Source of the DNA: Candidatus Zhuqueibacterota bacterium
Lineage (GTDB): Bacteria > Zhuqueibacterota > Zhuqueibacteria > Residuimicrobiales > Krinioviventaceae
Assembly: GCA_016934825.1 (NCBI GenBank)
Contig: JAFGSB010000140.1
Span: 62,001-126,000 of the forward strand
Length of the DNA: 64,000 nt
Reading direction: 5' to 3'
The notes under the pieces are model-generated. The model was not told where the DNA came from and did no database searches. It worked only from the letters and a program-made list of their open reading frames with translations. The first letter of the stretch is position 1, and every line of letters starts with the position of its first letter. Positions 48,461 through 61,362 of the stretch are shown piece by piece. Both the position numbers and the translations under genes were made by a program.

Positions 48461-51400
48461 TTAATTACCTCTGATGGCAATATTTACATTTATCCCGAAT
48501 TCTTTATAGGATGTATCGCCCAGCATTTTATTATGTGTTTTCCCAATCTCAAAAAACATTCCTCCCTTGACCCGGTCGCTGAAACTGTAATTGATATCCG
48601 GTTTGAGGAGCCACTTGCTTGTTTCAGACTTGATCACAAACGGTTTGTCGTTTATACTGTCTTCCTGACGATTTCCTCCAGATGTAAAGGTAAGCGAAAT
48701 ATCAACATTGTTTTTCAATCTTTTGTTTCGTAAAAAGGGAAGCGGTATCCTGAAATCGCTTCTCTTGGAATAATTCGCCGTAATTGAAACATCCGAACTC
48801 AGGGTTTTCTTTACAGAATTACTGATTGACCTGTTAAAAACAGTTTTTTCTGATTTATTATACCGTACCGTCATCGATATCCCGTTTTTCATGGACATTG
48901 TAATGCCTATAAGCGGCCGGAAATTGGCGTCTTTGTCTTCTTTTGTCAGGTTTTCTTTATTATTAACAATTTCAAATGACTGGTTTGCCCGTCCGGAAAA
49001 ATTATGATCCAGGGAGACTCGTTGAAAAAATTTATTAACATAAGGAAATTTTTCAAGCCCACTCATACTGGCGGTCCATCCCGGGAACATCATATCCATC
49101 TTACCAAGTGTCAGCCAGCTTTCGGATCGTTGTCCGGTTGTAGTTTTTCCATTGGCATTCAAAGAGGACGAATTATCATACTTTAACCTGAAGCTGAAAT
49201 TTCTGCCGAACCTGAGTCCTGAAGATATGGACGAAGTAATGTTTTCACTTTGACTACCCCGATTAAAGTTAGTACCGGACGAACCGCCTCCCCCGGTTAT
49301 GGCATCCTCGAGACCCACTCCCGGGTCTTTAGTTAGACCGAACTGAAAATCCCGTTTCGGCATGCTCTTTATTCCATAAGTTGTATAATTATCCCTGTTG
49401 TTATAATTTATACTAAAGGGCTCAAATAAATTCAATAAACCGGAAAAAATACCCAGGACAGAAATATTGATTTTTTTCTTGTTTTCGTTTTGTTTATTAT
49501 CTTCGGGGTTAGCGCCCGGAGCGGGTCTTCCTGCCGGCGGCCGGCCGGATCTTCCCTTGCCGGTTCCCGGACGGTAGATGGCTTTGGCTAAAGTACCGAG
49601 ATTTAAATTCCCGTTGGCCTGCATGGTTCTGCTTTGTGTTGCGCTGCGGGGCGCCAGGGTCTGTTGACGGTTAAAACCATATTTAAACCCCGCCGTATAA
49701 CTCAGGTTTGTTGTGATCCAGGAAAAAATTTTTGGACTATACTTGACTTGCAAATTATTGTCAACACTTGTCAATAACCCAAGCTTCCAGTCCTGAAGTT
49801 GTGTTTTAAAACTATCTGCATTTACCCCGCGCATATCATGGATGTACGTTCGTTTGACATCATAGGACAATGCTTCGATAATTTTCATGCTAAAACCGTA
49901 ACTGCGGTTCAATATAAAAGAGCTGTTTTCCGAAAGCACTCCCGACCTCGTCATGGACTCATTCATATTCCGGCTCCCTGAGTGGGAAGTCGTGATCGTT
50001 TGCGGCGCATAATAAAGTTTCAAGTCCGACAACATTGTCAAAAACCTTGAATTACCCAGCCATTTAAACGGTCTTATATAAGTGTTCCGACCGAACGCCA
50101 GTCCCCACGTCATACTGCCCGATTCGGCAATTGTTTCGCCATACTCTGTCCGGGAATCGCTCCTGAAACTCTCATTCCGGCTGTAGTTCGCTTTTAGCTG
50201 GGACAGTATATGTTTCACAAAAAAGTTTTGTGAACGGGAAGTAATGCCAAAGGAAACACTCATACCCCGTTTTTCATTCACAGATTTTATCGAATCCAGT
50301 GTTGCCTGTGGCAGTTCATCCGTTACTTCAATATCCGTTCCCGGAATATATTTCGGGGTCGATTCGCTTTTGGAATAATTAAAACTGACAGGCAATGACA
50401 AGCCAAGTTTGGCCGGCAAGAACTTATCCAGTGAAACGTTGGTGTTAAAACTACCACTCATCTCGTTGTCGCCTGTACCAAATCTTTCGGCGACATTATG
50501 AAAGTCGGCGTCCCGTTTGTTTAACTCGGCATTAAACCGCACCAGGTCGGCAAGTGTAAAATCGAGCCGGCTTCGCATCGCGATACCCTTGTCCTTTTTT
50601 ACATTGGACAAACGCAACTCGTTCATGTACACCTCCCCGGTGAACGGCGCAAGGCTTCCCGCTTTGCCACCCAAATCATTATAACCTAAATTTTTGACAC
50701 CCGCGACCAGCATTCGTATATTCCTTAACGCGGGTTTTCCTTTGACGATCCATGATTTTCCGTTCCCCAAATCCTTATAAAGTATTTTTATACCTGCATT
50801 CTCGGGATCATCGTATGACGTATCTGCGGTCACTTTCATTTGAGACAACGCGATCAGATCGACTTCAATATTATTATATTTCCATCCCTCATATACGGGC
50901 TGCCTGATTTCATAATAATTATTCATATCGGAGCCCATTCTCAGGAAAAACTCTATTTTACTCGAATCCTGTGTGATATGCTGTCCATAGGTATCCTTAC
51001 CATATACAAACATTTTTAAGGTTTTATAATGAATATAATCCTGCGCCTCATAAAATGTTTTTTGCACAATGCCGGTATAACCGGGTTGTAATTCCTCGAC
51101 CTTTAATACCAGGGATTGTTCTTTGGCGATAACACGGGTAATCCGGTCAACTTCGCCCTGTACGCCGGGGGGAGCTTTATATTCAGGATTATCATGGGTG
51201 TTCACAACGGTAATTGTAACTGTCGAATCGTTATCCACATCAAAAGTTTCCGGTTTGTCGGGAGTGGAGACACCCAGTTCTTTCCAGTCGCTTCCCACCA
51301 GATTAATTTCCGCAATCTTTATGGTATGCTCTTCGGATTCTTCAAATCCGTCGACCCAGATCCGCATATATTCGATCAAAGACATATCAGGAACGCCGAC

Positions 51401-54400
51401 TTTTTTCATTAACGGCTCCGTGGCGTTTAACGGAATACGGTATTGTCTCCACCCATGGTCTTTTCCGGTCTCTTTTTCAATACTTTTCCCCGAAATATAC
51501 ATCGTATCCGGGTGGTCCCGGCTTAATGAAAACGAATATTCAAAATAATTATTGGACAGATCGACATCGCCGTTTCCGTTCAAATCCTCGGTATCCGGTT
51601 CCCGCAATTGGTTGGAATTCATATTTTTTTCCGTACCGTTCACATGCAGGTATTTCGCATCGCTTTCAGGAGCCTGGGAATTATAACTCCAATCGTCATT
51701 ACTGTAGGGTTCACCCCAGTCCTTTATACCGTCAAAATCCAAGTCCCAGAAATCGCCTCCTGCCGCCTCAGCTTTGGGTTCGCCGTTCCGCATGCCGTCC
51801 AGCCCGATATCTTCACCTTCATCCAGTAATCCGTTACGGATCCCGTTCGTCAATTTATCTTCGGTATCGTATTTTTGATTCGGAATAATATCCTCCGATA
51901 TCTGGCCAAGATCGACGTGCATGGTCCCGTCATAACCCTGCACCCAGATTTCCAGGAATTTGGATTCGGTTTGATTGGAATATCCTGATGAAAGCGCTTT
52001 TTGAATACCGTTCCACGATTCCTTGATATCGGCAATACTGTCCGCCGGTTCAAATTTCAGAACAAGAATATTTTGGGTCTGGTTTACGTTGGCATTGAGA
52101 TCGCGGTTCGGCCAGATATCACTGATCGGATACGGCACATAAGGCGTGTAGAAATAGAGATGTCCGCGGCTTTCCAGGGTTCTAATACTATAATCATATT
52201 TTCCGTCTGGAGGGGAACTATATTCCCAGCCCTGATGAACGATACTGATTGGCGTGATCCTTTTCGTGGCCTCAAAGTCGTCAATATAAGCCACGCCGTC
52301 ATTATCATCCGTGTTTTCGTTATTTCGGGTATTGGGATTGGGAATGATCTGGGCGAATTCCCCCTCAAACTTGATTGTGGAGGGCGCGCGCGTATCGACA
52401 AAAGGCAGAAAATTTGCTATTCTCGTCAGGAAAAACGGTTCGGCGGACAATGACGTATTCACGTCCCATACCATATTCCGCATCGGACCTTTGCCAACAC
52501 GTATTTTTTGATCTAATGTTCGTTCGTTCAGGTATAAAAATGTCATACCAATAAAACTGTCGTCCCACAATCCGTACTCGGCGCGTGCGCCCATTACGGT
52601 TTTTTTATCGATTTGGAAGAGCTGGTTACTTTCATACGATATGTCGAGATTGGAATTCGCCGTCAGCGCACCTTCATTCAGAATCCGCAGCCGCCCGGAA
52701 AAGTAGTCGATGGTGTAATCCGTTCCGCGTGCCAACCTGCTACCGTTCAGCGTAACCTCTTCCGAATTTTCTATCACATTCATACCCAGACTGTATTCGG
52801 AACTGCTTTTTTTGGAATTCACTTCAATAAAGAAATTACTTTGCGCGTTGATTACGCTTTGAACGGTGGTATCATATAATGCGGGGGCATAATACTCTTT
52901 CGGCAGCAATTTTGCAACTTCTTCATTAACAGGATCAAAAGGACGCAAATCCGGGAAAAATATTTCACCGGTGCTGAAATTAATCAAAGCCGGGTTATCA
53001 TCAATTAAATTGTCCGGGGTACTGTCTCCGGCAAGATTCTTTTTATCCAGGCCGAACAACTGCAGGTAGGTCATCTTTTTTCCGCCGACTTCAATGGTCT
53101 CCTGCGGTTCGCCGGATGGCGGTTTGTAAAAGATACGCATTTCAAAACCGTCTTTGGGCGTGCCCCGTCCGAAATCATATACGTTTTTCCACGCCAGGTT
53201 CCATGTATTATCCGCGGGACGGGGGTCTTTATTTTTCAGCATTTTTATAAATATCAATTTAGTCGAATCGGGATCAATTGATAATGTCCCCCGTTCCACA
53301 CCGGAGGTGTCCCGGTAAGCGATGGCCAACACTTCATTTTCGCTCAGCCTTTGCCGCATCCGGATATACCCGAGCTGTTCATGAATATCATAATCGACAT
53401 TTTTTTCCAGTCGTATGAAATTACCCTTGTAATGATCACGATCACTCAAATTAGTATCCGGGTCTGCAACGGTCAGTGTTGTATCATTAACCGGCACAAA
53501 AGCCACTCCCCTGACAGACTCTGTATAAATTGTCTGGTAATTGGGCCCGGATTTGTATACTTCAAATTCAGACAATTCATGCGCCGGGTCGTATGTGATA
53601 TTGCCGTCGGCAGTCCTCGTTAAATAATTTTGCCGGTAAACGTCAGATATAAAATAATATATCCCGCGTTTATACTGGTAATCCTCAATACGCGTTGCTT
53701 CTTCAGACGCGCCGCCCTTGAGTGATAATTTCTTTTTTTCGCCCTTTTCCTGGCTGGCGATAGCAGTTAATTTCAGGTTTCCGATCGTCGCCGCTGTTTT
53801 AATACCGAACAGACCGTTGCTTTTACCGCCAAATGTCACAAACTGCGTTCCGGGCAGTGATAATGTTATATTTCCCGCTTCAATGGACTGGATAACCTCG
53901 TCCTCATAACCTTCATACTGTAATCTGATGTTGTTATCAAAATCAAAAGTCCGTTCGGAATCCTGGTCAATACCGATGGTCACTTTATCCCCGATGTGGC
54001 CCTGCACACGAAATCGCTGGGTTTGTTCCATTTTAAAACTGTTATCGGAGCCGCGGTTGAGAGCGGATTTCACCTCGGAACGTTTTTCATTCCGGAACCC
54101 TCCCTTGATGTTAATTTCTCCACTCACATCCAGCCCGACCGTACCTCCCCCGAATATCTTCTGAAACGCCTTGCTTTTAATTTCAACCGGAATATCAATT
54201 CGAAATCCTCCGCTGCCCCGTGTTCCCTGAGATGTCTCCTCCAGTTTGCTTACGGTTGTTTGTATCCACATATCCTGCATTTTATAACTTTGCCTGGATC
54301 TAATATATTCATCCAGCGGTAAAAAATTGGCAAGCCGGAAATTCAAATCGCCCATTTTTTCCGTAAAATTAATATTCTCCCCCGTGGAATCTATCTCTAC

Positions 54401-54652
54401 GGTTCGTTTCAAATTTGAAAGTTTATTTTTTAAAATGGGAGTTCTTGATCCGTTCATATGCAGACCGAGGAAACGTTGTTCCTCAACAATATTTACCCGG
54501 GGATCGTAACAGTCGGGCATACGCATACCTATGCGTGAAAGCATCTCCGTTTGTGCGGATGCACCCAAAGATAAAAATATAACGGCTAACAATATGAACA
54601 ATACCACAGGCAACGAGGATATGTTCGTTACTGTCTTATAAAAAAAATTCAT
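48461..54652 (-). CDS. sprA: T9SS outer-membrane translocon SprA/Sov
   Basis: 2063-aa protein; FLGLHMNGSRTPILKNKLSNLKRTVEID; repeated SprA-type segments (FRIDIPVEIKSKAFQKIFGGGTVGLDVSGEINIKGG; APSTIKFEGEFAQIIPNPN; AYIDDFEATK); large beta-barrel. Confidence 0.93.
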   Translation of the reverse strand: MNFFYKTVTNISSLPVVLFILLAVIFLSLGASAQTEMLSRIGMRMPDCYDPRVNIVEEQRFLGLHMNGSRTPILKNKLSNLKRTVEIDSTGENINFTEKMGDLNFRLANFLPLDEYIRSRQSYKMQDMWIQTTVSKLEETSQGTRGSGGFRIDIPVEIKSKAFQKIFGGGTVGLDVSGEINIKGGFRNEKRSEVKSALNRGSDNSFKMEQTQRFRVQGHIGDKVTIGIDQDSERTFDFDNNIRLQYEGYEDEVIQSIEAGNITLSLPGTQFVTFGGKSNGLFGIKTAATIGNLKLTAIASQEKGEKKKLSLKGGASEEATRIEDYQYKRGIYYFISDVYRQNYLTRTADGNITYDPAHELSEFEVYKSGPNYQTIYTESVRGVAFVPVNDTTLTVADPDTNLSDRDHYKGNFIRLEKNVDYDIHEQLGYIRMRQRLSENEVLAIAYRDTSGVERGTLSIDPDSTKLIFIKMLKNKDPRPADNTWNLAWKNVYDFGRGTPKDGFEMRIFYKPPSGEPQETIEVGGKKMTYLQLFGLDKKNLAGDSTPDNLIDDNPALINFSTGEIFFPDLRPFDPVNEEVAKLLPKEYYAPALYDTTVQSVINAQSNFFIEVNSKKSSSEYSLGMNVIENSEEVTLNGSRLARGTDYTIDYFSGRLRILNEGALTANSNLDISYESNQLFQIDKKTVMGARAEYGLWDDSFIGMTFLYLNERTLDQKIRVGKGPMRNMVWDVNTSLSAEPFFLTRIANFLPFVDTRAPSTIKFEGEFAQIIPNPNTRNNENTDDNDGVAYIDDFEATKRITPISIVHQGWEYSSPPDGKYDYSIRTLESRGHLYFYTPYVPYPISDIWPNRDLNANVNQTQNILVLKFEPADSIADIKESWNGIQKALSSGYSNQTESKFLEIWVQGYDGTMHVDLGQISEDIIPNQKYDTEDKLTNGIRNGLLDEGEDIGLDGMRNGEPKAEAAGGDFWDLDFDGIKDWGEPYSNDDWSYNSQAPESDAKYLHVNGTEKNMNSNQLREPDTEDLNGNGDVDLSNNYFEYSFSLSRDHPDTMYISGKSIEKETGKDHGWRQYRIPLNATEPLMKKVGVPDMSLIEYMRIWVDGFEESEEHTIKIAEINLVGSDWKELGVSTPDKPETFDVDNDSTVTITVVNTHDNPEYKAPPGVQGEVDRITRVIAKEQSLVLKVEELQPGYTGIVQKTFYEAQDYIHYKTLKMFVYGKDTYGQHITQDSSKIEFFLRMGSDMNNYYEIRQPVYEGWKYNNIEVDLIALSQMKVTADTSYDDPENAGIKILYKDLGNGKSWIVKGKPALRNIRMLVAGVKNLGYNDLGGKAGSLAPFTGEVYMNELRLSNVKKDKGIAMRSRLDFTLADLVRFNAELNKRDADFHNVAERFGTGDNEMSGSFNTNVSLDKFLPAKLGLSLPVSFNYSKSESTPKYIPGTDIEVTDELPQATLDSIKSVNEKRGMSVSFGITSRSQNFFVKHILSQLKANYSRNESFRSDSRTEYGETIAESGSMTWGLAFGRNTYIRPFKWLGNSRFLTMLSDLKLYYAPQTITTSHSGSRNMNESMTRSGVLSENSSFILNRSYGFSMKIIEALSYDVKRTYIHDMRGVNADSFKTQLQDWKLGLLTSVDNNLQVKYSPKIFSWITTNLSYTAGFKYGFNRQQTLAPRSATQSRTMQANGNLNLGTLAKAIYRPGTGKGRSGRPPAGRPAPGANPEDNKQNENKKKINISVLGIFSGLLNLFEPFSINYNNRDNYTTYGIKSMPKRDFQFGLTKDPGVGLEDAITGGGGSSGTNFNRGSQSENITSSISSGLRFGRNFSFRLKYDNSSSLNANGKTTTGQRSESWLTLGKMDMMFPGWTASMSGLEKFPYVNKFFQRVSLDHNFSGRANQSFEIVNNKENLTKEDKDANFRPLIGITMSMKNGISMTVRYNKSEKTVFNRSISNSVKKTLSSDVSITANYSKRSDFRIPLPFLRNKRLKNNVDISLTFTSGGNRQEDSINDKPFVIKSETSKWLLKPDINYSFSDRVKGGMFFEIGKTHNKMLGDTSYKEFGINVNIAIRGN

Positions 54653-57612: not shown

Positions 57613-58635
57613 TTAATAAAGACGTGACAATAATCTCTGTATGTTTTCCAGCTCGAGCAGTGAATCCGAATCCGACATATAATTTACTTTTCCCCCGCTT
57701 TTCGCCTGGTAAAAAACGGCATTCAAAAAATCTATCATTTCTTCCTTACTGATTAAAGGCTCGTATTCATAAATACGGTTGCGCCGGTTGGTTGGGCTCA
57801 TCTCGATACCGCTTTCACCTGTCAGGCCGAAAAATGTAAATTCATTCCGTGGAGACTTTATTTTTCTTTTTAACAAACCCCTGTCCGCCAGGTTTTCCAG
57901 AATATTATTCAGGTCGGCTGCCGTGATTTTAATACTGGTATCAAAACTTGCATAAATGCTTTGGTCCGTGGCCCGCTTTTTCTGCCAGATGATTTTTAAA
58001 GCTTCCAATTGCTTTTCACTGGGCAAAAAATCCATTCTCACCGGTTTATCCTCATCACGATCACCCAGCTTATCCCTGATAAAATTTGCTCCGTCATTCA
58101 ACAACTTTGGTATCGAAACGGTTGGCTTTGGGTAACCCATGCTTTTCTGATAAATTCTGTCCTCGACATTATCATAATTCTGTGTTCCTCCTTGAAGCTT
58201 TTTAAAGAGCCACAATGAATCGGGTAGAAAAAGACTGTCATTCTGGTGTACGGTATGGATTACTGATTTATCATATTCCGGTTTGGATAAAAATACAGTA
58301 TCGATAAGAAATAACCGGTTATGAGTAATCGGCCTTAAAGTGTCTTCGAGGATTTTACTGGCGGCAACTAAACTGTCCGGAGGTTTAAGTTCAATAAACT
58401 TTGAGGGTATATCCTCTTTATTTTCCATATTTATTTTGGGTTCTGTTTTTATATAATCAGGCCGCCCTGAGATTTCCGGGCGCTTTTCGGTGTCCAGGAC
58501 CACTTCCGGATCTTCTTCCAATATAAAATAAATAACTTCCCGGCCGGGTTCACCCACGTTAATATTCATGAATATAACCGTTAACAATGTATGTATAAAA
58601 AGTGATAAAAAAATCCAGGGGGCAAGGGATTTCAT
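57613..58635 (-). CDS. Membrane-anchored protein with C-terminal BlaI/MecI-like winged-helix segment
   Basis: N-terminal TM LAPWIFLSLFIHTLLTVIFMNI resembles a TonB-type anchor; C-terminal SEKQLEALKIIWQKKRATDQSIYASF...ADLNNILENLADRGLLKRKI resembles a BlaI-type wHTH. Confidence 0.75.
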   Translation of the reverse strand: MKSLAPWIFLSLFIHTLLTVIFMNINVGEPGREVIYFILEEDPEVVLDTEKRPEISGRPDYIKTEPKINMENKEDIPSKFIELKPPDSLVAASKILEDTLRPITHNRLFLIDTVFLSKPEYDKSVIHTVHQNDSLFLPDSLWLFKKLQGGTQNYDNVEDRIYQKSMGYPKPTVSIPKLLNDGANFIRDKLGDRDEDKPVRMDFLPSEKQLEALKIIWQKKRATDQSIYASFDTSIKITAADLNNILENLADRGLLKRKIKSPRNEFTFFGLTGESGIEMSPTNRRNRIYEYEPLISKEEMIDFLNAVFYQAKSGGKVNYMSDSDSLLELENIQRLLSRLY

Positions 58636-58898: not shown

Positions 58899-59216
58899 AT
58901 GGAAGCGTTTATTATTGTACTGACTACATTCGGTTCAAAAGAAGAAGCGCAAAAAGTTACTGACAAGCTTTTAAAAGCCCGGCTCATTGCCTGTGCGAAT
59001 ATAATTGATAAAGTGGATTCCTTTTTTCACTGGCAGGGCAAAATTGAAAACGAACAGGAAGCTATCGCCATTTTAAAAACGCAAAAAAAACATCTGGATG
59101 AATTGTTCGAATGGATACAGACGCATCATTCATATAGCGTTCCGGAAATATTAGCCCTGCCGATTGTTCGAGGTTCCAGTGATTATCTTGCCTGGATAAA
59201 AGAGGAAACCTCCTGA
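58899..59216 (+). CDS. cutA: Divalent cation tolerance protein CutA
   Basis: TTFGSKEEAQKVTDKLLKARLIACANIIDKVDSFFHWQGKIENEQEAIAILKTQ...YSVPEILALPIVRGSSDYLAWI. Confidence 0.96.
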   Translation: MEAFIIVLTTFGSKEEAQKVTDKLLKARLIACANIIDKVDSFFHWQGKIENEQEAIAILKTQKKHLDELFEWIQTHHSYSVPEILALPIVRGSSDYLAWIKEETS

Positions 59217-59337: not shown

Positions 59338-60267
59338 TTGTTTCAAAAGCATCCTTATAAAACGACATTCGTTATATCAATAATTATACATCTTTTATTA
59401 TTATTGATTTACAGGCCTATAACGGGTATAGCGAATCTGTTCCCGCAACCGGTAACTCAAGACGCGGAAATCGAACCGCTTGTGTTTGAATTTGAAGAAC
59501 CCAGAGAACTGGTGGAAACCCCCGAAGAAGCGAGAGTAGAAAAACCCCCGGATAATGCTCAATTCTATTCGGATAAAAATGCCAGGGCTCAGGATCTGAT
59601 TGCTGCAAACGATCTGCCTTCCGGGCTTTCTTTTAGTGAAGGACAAACCGATTATAAAATTTTCGCCGGGGGAGGTGTGGCAGGCGAACAAATGGAAGCC
59701 CCGCAAAACGAACAACAGCAACAGGAAGACGGCCGGGAAAACAACAATTCGGAACAGTCTGAAAATCAATACAAAATTGAAAATGGTGATCTGCAAATTT
59801 CTCAACAGCAACAGGTATCCCCATATCAAAGACAACGTTTCAGTAAAGATTTGCTATACGGACGTAAGACGAATAGAAATTTGGGTGAAAATAATTTCAC
59901 GGATGACGTAAACTGGAACAATCAGGAATCCAGCGCGGAAGACGCAGGCGGTATTTCTCTCAGCACCTATGAGTGGAATTATGCCCCGTATTTATTGTAC
60001 CTGAAAAGACGGGTACGGGATCATGTTTACCCGCCGGCGGCGTTTTATCAATTGGGCGTTATTAACGGTGAAGTGATATTAAAATTTACCATCTTTAAAA
60101 ACGGTTCAATAACCGACCCGCAACTCATCACCAATAAAGGACACGATTCATTTATCTCGACAAGTATTAACGCAATAAAAGCCTCCAGTCCGTTTAAATA
60201 TTTACCCGATGATTTCCCTGAAAAAGAATTGGAAATAATCTGGACTTTTGTATATTCAATTTATTGA
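59338..60267 (+). CDS. tonB: Energy transducer TonB (TTG start), Gln-rich linker
   Basis: N-terminal TM; C-terminal LKRRVRDHVYPPAAFYQLGVINGEVILKFTIFKNGSITDPQLI; followed by exbB/exbD. Confidence 0.88.
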   Translation: MFQKHPYKTTFVISIIIHLLLLLIYRPITGIANLFPQPVTQDAEIEPLVFEFEEPRELVETPEEARVEKPPDNAQFYSDKNARAQDLIAANDLPSGLSFSEGQTDYKIFAGGGVAGEQMEAPQNEQQQQEDGRENNNSEQSENQYKIENGDLQISQQQQVSPYQRQRFSKDLLYGRKTNRNLGENNFTDDVNWNNQESSAEDAGGISLSTYEWNYAPYLLYLKRRVRDHVYPPAAFYQLGVINGEVILKFTIFKNGSITDPQLITNKGHDSFISTSINAIKASSPFKYLPDDFPEKELEIIWTFVYSIY

Positions 60268-60308
60268 TAAAATTCATTTTATGATTAGCAGAACAGGAAA
60301 AGGTTTTT

Positions 60309-60929
60309 ATGAGTGAAGCAATTACTTATTTATCTAAAGGCGGAATAATGATGATTCCGCTTTTATTATGTTCAATTATCGGTCTTATGATTGTCATTGA
60401 AAAAATGATCAGTTTGCGCCGGGACAAAATTCTTATACCTGAAATTATATCCGTCGTGGACTCTATAAACAGCAATCAGGATATAAAACTGGCGACAACG
60501 ATTTGTCAAAAAAACAAGGGGCCCCTTCCCAACATTATTTTGACGGGTTTGCATAACCAGCTTCTTCCCATGGAAGATATAAAAGAAATTATCAATGATG
60601 AGGGCCGCCAGCAGGTCAGGATTCTGGAAAGAGGGCTGCCCGTACTTGAAACGATCGCCGGAGTTTCGCCCTTGCTGGGTTTACTGGGTACCGTACTGGG
60701 TATGATCAGGGTTTTTAACGACATCATGATCCACGGTACCGGTAATGCGGACAAGCTGGCCGGCGGAATTTCCGAGGCATTAATTACAACGGCAACCGGT
60801 TTGTTTATTGGTATCCCTATGCTTATCGCTTTTAATTATTTTACAGACCGGGCGGAAAATTTTATCATGGATATTGAAAAATATTCTACACGATTACTGC
60901 AAAAAATAAATACCATCAATAACTCCTGA
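60309..60929 (+). CDS. exbB: MotA/TolQ/ExbB proton channel family protein
   Basis: ERGLPVLETIAGVSPLLGLLGTVLGMIRVFNDI; ISEALITTATGLFIGIPMLIAFNYF. Confidence 0.95.
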   Translation: MSEAITYLSKGGIMMIPLLLCSIIGLMIVIEKMISLRRDKILIPEIISVVDSINSNQDIKLATTICQKNKGPLPNIILTGLHNQLLPMEDIKEIINDEGRQQVRILERGLPVLETIAGVSPLLGLLGTVLGMIRVFNDIMIHGTGNADKLAGGISEALITTATGLFIGIPMLIAFNYFTDRAENFIMDIEKYSTRLLQKINTINNS

Positions 60930-60957
60930 AACGATCTTATTCATTCAATTTAAAAAT

Positions 60958-61362
60958 ATGCAATTTAAAGAGAAAAAAAAGAAATCTGTGGGCATCAACA
61001 TTACCAGTTTGATTGACGTAATGTTCATTCTGTTGATATTTTTTATGGTCTCCTCAAGTTTTATTGAACAATCGGGCATGAAACTGGAACTGCCCACTGT
61101 GAAAAGTCAGGAAGTCGCTCGGATTGAAAATCTGCTGATGTTTGTCTCAAAAGACGGCGATATCAAAATCGGTCAAAAATCCGTGCCAATGGACAGTCTG
61201 GCTTTTGAAATCGAAAGACTTGTACCGGAGATGAAAGAAAAAACCCTCATCTTAAAAGCGGACAAGGCAACGGAACACGGATTAATAATACAAATTATGG
61301 ATATCGCCAAAAGATCTGGATTGAAAAAAATTGTTATCGGCACACAATTTGAAGATTTATAA
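60958..61362 (+). CDS. exbD: Biopolymer transporter ExbD
   Basis: NITSLIDVMFILLIFFMVSSSFIEQSGMKLELPTVKS; LILKADKATEHGLIIQIMDIAKRSG. Confidence 0.95.
   Translation: MQFKEKKKKSVGINITSLIDVMFILLIFFMVSSSFIEQSGMKLELPTVKSQEVARIENLLMFVSKDGDIKIGQKSVPMDSLAFEIERLVPEMKEKTLILKADKATEHGLIIQIMDIAKRSGLKKIVIGTQFEDL

Follow-up and report, generated by a model that had tools for sequence, protein, structure and literature searches.

A Predicted Exported Winged Helix of the BlaI/MecI Type, Carried on a TonB-Type Anchor in About Half of Its Family and Near-Core in the KSB1/Calditrichota Phylum

Why is a winged helix of the BlaI/MecI type found behind a membrane anchor resembling that of TonB? The question is raised by one gene in a 64,000-nucleotide stretch of DNA from a Candidatus Zhuqueibacterota bacterium (contig JAFGSB010000140.1, positions 62,001 to 126,000), which is called the window here. 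According to a preliminary description made from the sequence, the gene product consists of a single N-terminal transmembrane helix, a linker of about 170 residues, and a C-terminal winged helix, so that either the topology is inverted or the DNA-binding fold has been repurposed.

Architecture of the Protein

The open reading frame claimed in that description was matched exactly, and its strand, which had not been given, is minus. The transmembrane helix, the linker, and the C-terminal stretch are all present as quoted, with a linker of about 180 residues. The gene and the parts of its product are as follows:

57613..58635, minus strand: whole gene, anchored and predicted exported winged-helix protein, 340 aa, ATG start
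58564..58623, minus strand: N-terminal transmembrane helix, residues 5-24, helical in the AF2 model, with Ser11-x3-His15 inside
58510..58545, minus strand: D-box-like strand after the transmembrane helix, residues 31-42, GREVIYFILEED, flanked by Pro30 and Pro43
58171..58563, minus strand: disordered linker, predicted periplasmic, residues 25-155 (AF2)
58069..58170, minus strand: helices preceding the winged helix, residues 156-189, including PTVSIPKLLNDGANFIRDKLG; AF2 helices 156-165 and 175-189
57616..58023, minus strand: BlaI/MecI-type winged helix and C-terminal helices, residues 205-340
57883..57921, minus strand: former recognition helix, lacking the canonical DNA-contact pattern, residues 239-251
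57775..57858, minus strand: family-specific wing insert, SPxNEF...IEMSxxNRRN, residues 260-287

In the full-length AF2 model (mean pLDDT 74), disordered chain separates the N-terminal helix (residues 5-24) from a pair of helices, after which the winged helix begins at residue 207. In the linker (residues 25-155), pLDDT is mostly 42-69 and the chain is irregular except for one short helical turn.

Fold of the C-Terminal Domain

The C-terminal domain (140 residues) matched Pfam PF03965 (Penicillinase_R, cut-off 22.6 bits) with 25.3-25.4 bits and an E-value of about 2e-5, while the whole protein scored 21.5 bits, slightly below the cut-off; the same Pfam family was matched independently by 46 of 61 relatives. 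A profile made from 61 domains detected the BlaI/CopR/MecI structures (2k4b, 1.4e-5; 1p6r, 2.8e-5; MecI, 3e-4), and the AF2 model of the domain, built with the 61 relatives, reached a pLDDT of 88.9. When this model was compared with the PDB by Foldseek, the first 11 matches were all MecI or BlaI, with a probability of 1.00. The proposed BlaI/MecI-like winged helix is therefore borne out by PF03965, the family profile, AF2, and Foldseek, the last three of which rule out a chance resemblance to BlaI; the AlphaFold-type check suggested beforehand returned a winged helix and not another fold. No TonB_C domain was matched in the window protein, and a vWA fold was not found in its head, for which the best Foldseek matches are MecI and BlaI.

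The best Foldseek match had a TMq of 0.56 and an rmsd of 8.3, suggesting that the C-terminal helices are probably placed differently from those of MecI and BlaI. Two helices follow the wing in the AF2 monomer, and they are weakly conserved across the family. Within the winged-helix domain, P205, Y228, P262, E278, N286, and Y291 are invariant in the family alignment.

Recognition Helix and Wing

The heads of the family were aligned with 33 canonical rows, namely 32 BlaI proteins from the same genomes and the MecI repressor, whose sequence also served as a search query. The first half of the recognition helix reads A-E-D-L-N in the family and T-T-V-[KQR]-T in the canonical proteins, where T-T-x-[KQR]-T is near-invariant among the true BlaI proteins of these genomes. 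The mean charge of this half is -0.97 in the family versus +1.06 in the canonical set (p=1.6e-13, calculated over relatives that are not independent). Outside the recognition helix, the domain is more basic overall than canonical BlaI, including the wing (+3.9 versus +1.7) and the C-terminal helices (+2.2 versus -1.3). The wing is also longer by about 25 residues, with the pattern SPxNEF...IEMSxxNRRNRVYxY, which is absent from canonical BlaI and MecI.

Conservation has shifted as well. In the family, the wing insert (2.54 bits per column) is more conserved than the recognition helix (2.06), whereas the order is reversed in the canonical family, with the recognition helix as its most conserved part (2.96 bits). 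With the recognition-helix motif lost and the wing insert more conserved, it is well supported that the head would not be a usual operator binder, and the wing has probably taken over as its working surface.

Anchor or Signal Peptide

The N-termini of 61 relatives were typed by custom sequence criteria, not SignalP, with some start codons uncertain, giving 28 anchors, 28 signal peptides, and five truncated or unclear cases. A cleavage-like [ASG]Q directly behind the hydrophobic core was present in 21 of the 28 signal-peptide members, versus 7.4 expected from shuffles, and in one of the 28 anchored members. On the anchored side, the N-side flank is positive in all 28, as positive-inside charge predicts. 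Neither type of N-terminus occurred in any of the 32 canonical BlaI proteins from these genomes.

On a tree rooted with proteins of a second phylum (see below), the anchor and signal-peptide states change six times, and at least two of these changes are forced by well-supported branches. Such repeated switching indicates that export is what the family keeps. The family is predicted to be exported whichever N-terminus it carries, with the periplasmic location read from the sequence; export and repurposing, taken together, are well supported, and we hold them with high confidence.

Motor-Binding Features of the Anchor

In the anchor of the window protein, Ser11-x3-His15 supplies the Ser and His of the SHLS motor-binding motif defined in PMC12215075; no more of the motif is kept, and Phe22 replaces Leu. 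SxxxH is present in 25 of the 28 anchored members and the His in all 28. A profile of the anchored N-termini matched the N-termini of neighbouring TonB proteins (probability 95%, E 2.4e-8), which confirms the TonB-like anchor of the preliminary description, while signal-peptide members, used as a control, gave a probability of 0.8%.

Right after the transmembrane helix, a phi-x-phi-x-phi strand resembling the D-box (described in PMC10907165), assigned by sequence pattern alone, is present in 23 of 28 anchored members versus 2.1 expected from the remaining linker, a count that drops to 15 of 28 when the search begins three residues later. It also occurs in 22 of 26 TonB neighbours and in five of 28 signal-peptide members. 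The Ser/His pair and the strand are both lost in signal-peptide members. With motor-binding features missing from that half, transmitting force cannot be what all family members do. The anchored members may nevertheless work in a TonB-like manner, and we somewhat favour their coupling to an ExbBD-type proton-driven motor.

Gene Neighbourhood

The gene lies near tonB-exbBD (59338-61362) and lptFG, as first described, and the following genes surround it:

58899..59216, plus strand: cutA, divergent neighbour, NCBIfam CutA 112 bits (cut-off 120)
59338..60267, plus strand: tonB-like gene with its own SxxxH anchor and TonB_C, PF03544 27.7 bits (cut-off 24.6)
60309..60929, plus strand: exbB/tolQ-type motor gene, PF01618 113.6 bits
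60958..61362, plus strand: exbD/tolR-type motor gene, PF02472 102.1 bits
55097-57599: lptF/lptG
48461-54652: sprA (SprA/Sov-type T9SS translocon gene), NCBIfam 932.7 bits

Divergent from the gene runs cutA-tonB-exbB-exbD, in some loci with a metallo-beta-lactamase-fold gene between cutA and tonB; the intergenic gap to cutA is 263 bp. The comparison of orthologue neighbourhoods that had been proposed was made over 56 typed loci. A divergent tonB was found upstream in 20 of 28 anchored versus six of 28 signal-peptide members, and cutA upstream in 27 of the 56 loci. As independent support for the anchor, tonB adjacency was set aside, because only two informative pairs lie on supported branches, and it is read as synteny only.

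On the convergent side, the window's own group has lptF/lptG and then sprA, and the SprA gene is kept beyond lptFG in the window's family. Elsewhere this side holds an epimerase, a serine-palmitoyltransferase-like gene (NCBIfam SerpalmtaseCFB 563 bits, cut-off 640), and a gene for a 374-aa GNAT protein (L044, L056, L057, L060, L073, and others), a group suggestive of sphingolipid (ceramide) synthesis. We also observed a conserved 92-aa protein with no Pfam match (L060:1970-2245), encoded beside zinc-ribbon, PTS EIIA, and ManC genes in at least 11 loci.

No M56/BlaR1 partner was recognised among the annotated neighbours or the recurrent neighbour families of the gene. As an internal contrast, three true BlaI genes are encoded in the genome of the window, in open frames of 127-138 aa, and every one of them has an M56/BlaR1 gene next to it. 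Two of these partners have unusual architectures: one M56/BlaR1-type protein is fused to Peptidase_M23 (L104:3-1475), and another carries CarboxypepD_reg and TonB_C (L105:1865-3343).

Distribution of the Family

A profile search of 388 genomes gave strong matches (at least 100 bits over the family profile) in 74 of 82 genomes of the KSB1/Calditrichota phylum; a search covering 99 genomes detected the protein in 74 of them. Being near-core in this phylum, the gene probably has a part in some basic process of the envelope. Named records of relatives, obtained by an 8-row alignment pattern search (12 named loci), are mostly from KSB1 and Calditrichota bacteria. A single-sequence search of the genome contigs with the window protein gave no match.

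Outside the phylum, matches at E<1e-6 were obtained in four of 306 genomes (G278, G253, G353, and G357). The match in G253 (L147) was rejected as a canonical BlaI protein carrying YTTV, and those in G353 and G357, short open frames of 143 and 139 aa, were put down as likely canonical by length. The protein in G278 (L146:1792-2781) was the one anchored relative that this search gave among the approximately 306 outside genomes, and it pointed to a second phylum (L146 and L149-L153), where an SxxxH anchor, a linker, and a winged helix are combined in five of six genomes. These second-phylum proteins have a similar helical segment before the domain, mostly lack the long wing insert, and have different gene neighbours. 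A combined profile searched against 386 genomes yielded no further phylum, and beyond these two phyla none was found among about 300 sampled genomes.

Possible Function

The explanation that we prefer, by a modest degree of confidence, is a periplasmic protein-binding winged helix that in anchored members is coupled to an ExbBD-type proton-driven motor. The exported BlaI/MecI-type domain would serve as a periplasmic module that binds protein or otherwise acts without operator binding; both this role and its partner are what we infer. In the window's genome and about half of the relatives, the module would hang on the TonB/TolA-type anchor via the disordered linker, the Ser-x3-His face of the anchor would dock on an ExbB/TolQ-type subunit, and the following strand would contact ExbD/TolR; the next-door (or a similar) motor could then pull on or position the winged helix against a cell-wall or outer-membrane partner. 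In the other half, where a signal peptide replaces the anchor, the domain would be untethered.

A protein-binding winged helix might instead be exported with no motor coupling, as a periplasmic scaffold, adaptor, or chaperone-like protein whose helix is a tether inherited from the adjacent tonB. The untethered half of the family agrees with this idea, as the shared function needs no motor, and the synteny is old and perhaps inherited. Yet anchored members retain the Ser/His pair in combination with the D-box-like strand, and a plain tether needs neither, so that we consider it unlikely, if still worth weighing. It seems hardly probable that the protein instead competes with or regulates the adjacent Ton system, taking the TonB site on ExbBD and modulating TonB while transmitting no force: the anchor type is indeed shared with the TonB next door, but this would account neither for the conserved C-terminal domain nor for the existence of free signal-peptide forms.

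Binding of nucleic acids or other polyanions through the basic wing, in DNA uptake, with extracellular DNA, or in contact with LPS or phospholipid, would be consistent with the more positive charge of the wing (NRRNR) and of the C-terminal helices relative to canonical BlaI, and with envelope-lipid genes among the neighbours. We regard it as improbable, as the recognition helix is now acidic, the recurrent neighbour families included no recognisable gene for competence or DNA uptake, and the residues most strongly conserved in the wing (S, P, E, N, N, Y) are atypical as a DNA-contact set. The inverted topology that had been put forward as one of two readings would give a membrane-anchored transcription factor, with a cytoplasmic winged helix repressing a neighbouring operon such as cutA-tonB-exbBD. 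Classical regulators are often divergently placed relative to their targets, and both the BlaI-type domain and the divergent intergenic region to cutA would fit. However, we reject the inverted topology on the strength of the signal peptides carried by half of the relatives, the positive-inside flank charge of all anchors, and the similarity of the anchor to TonB; moreover, the recognition-helix motif is lost, and the genome already has its true BlaI genes, each with an M56/BlaR1 gene. A cytoplasmic regulator is thus very improbable, and of the two readings, the repurposed winged helix stands, given that half of the family swaps the anchor for a signal peptide, the flank charge is positive inside, and DNA-contact residues are lost.

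Comparison with Known Systems

The BlaI/MecI/CopY repressors (PF03965) share with the window family the winged-helix fold, significant sequence similarity, and C-terminal helices after the wing. The window family differs in being exported, as predicted, in the replaced contact motif of the recognition helix, in the 25-residue wing insert, and in having no recognised M56/BlaR1 partner; by predicted location, recognition helix, and partner gene, it would not be a BlaI/MecI repressor. Winged helices are near-automatically read as DNA-binding regulators, and the family would be misannotated as "BlaI/MecI transcriptional regulator" despite its predicted export. A fold that normally switches genes off inside the cell, here predicted to lie on the outer side of the inner membrane, has probably exchanged DNA binding for a mechanical or binding role in the envelope. 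The term "periplasmic winged helix" and its variants were not found in the open-access literature searched; judging by their titles, three papers there that combine winged helices with TonB and ExbD concern copper, a genome, and Helicobacter regulators.

TonB/TolA transducers likewise have a single N-terminal helix with the SHLS Ser/His, a D-box-like strand, a disordered linker, and a globular C-terminal domain, and ExbB/ExbD genes are present in the window locus (60309-61362). Unlike them, the window family has a winged helix as its head, not TonB_C or TolA domain III, and half of it is anchorless. Judged by the C-terminal domain, it would not be a TonB/TolA member, though apparently built from BlaI and TonB parts. 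The BlaR1-type M56 protein with TonB_C in the same genome (L105) also unites the BlaI and TonB worlds, but there the sensor bears TonB_C and the BlaI protein is separate and canonical.

A parallel in design is the class of SHLS-anchored vWA transducers proposed, as a prediction, by Williams-Jones et al. 2025 (PMC12204202), in which tethered vWA forms resemble a free periplasmic protein (YfbK); the text of that paper makes no mention of winged helices. Both groups combine a TonB-type anchor and a linker with an unrelated C-terminal fold, and in both, tethered and free forms coexist, whereas the fold (winged helix here, vWA there), the phyla, and the neighbours differ. We tentatively suggest, as a possibility short of a favoured conclusion, that the window family adds one more class to the trans-envelope transducers driven by the proton-motive force, found in nearly all genomes of one phylum and also in a second. 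In this class, a DNA-binding repressor domain would have been exported, lost its operator-binding surface, and come to serve as the head with which a TonB-type arm binds its cargo. The candidate motor contact, at Ser11, His15, and the strand of residues 31-42, can be tested directly, as can the wing insert of the head, and the family would extend the 2025 vWA idea, in that TonB/TolA-type anchors bear quite different heads.
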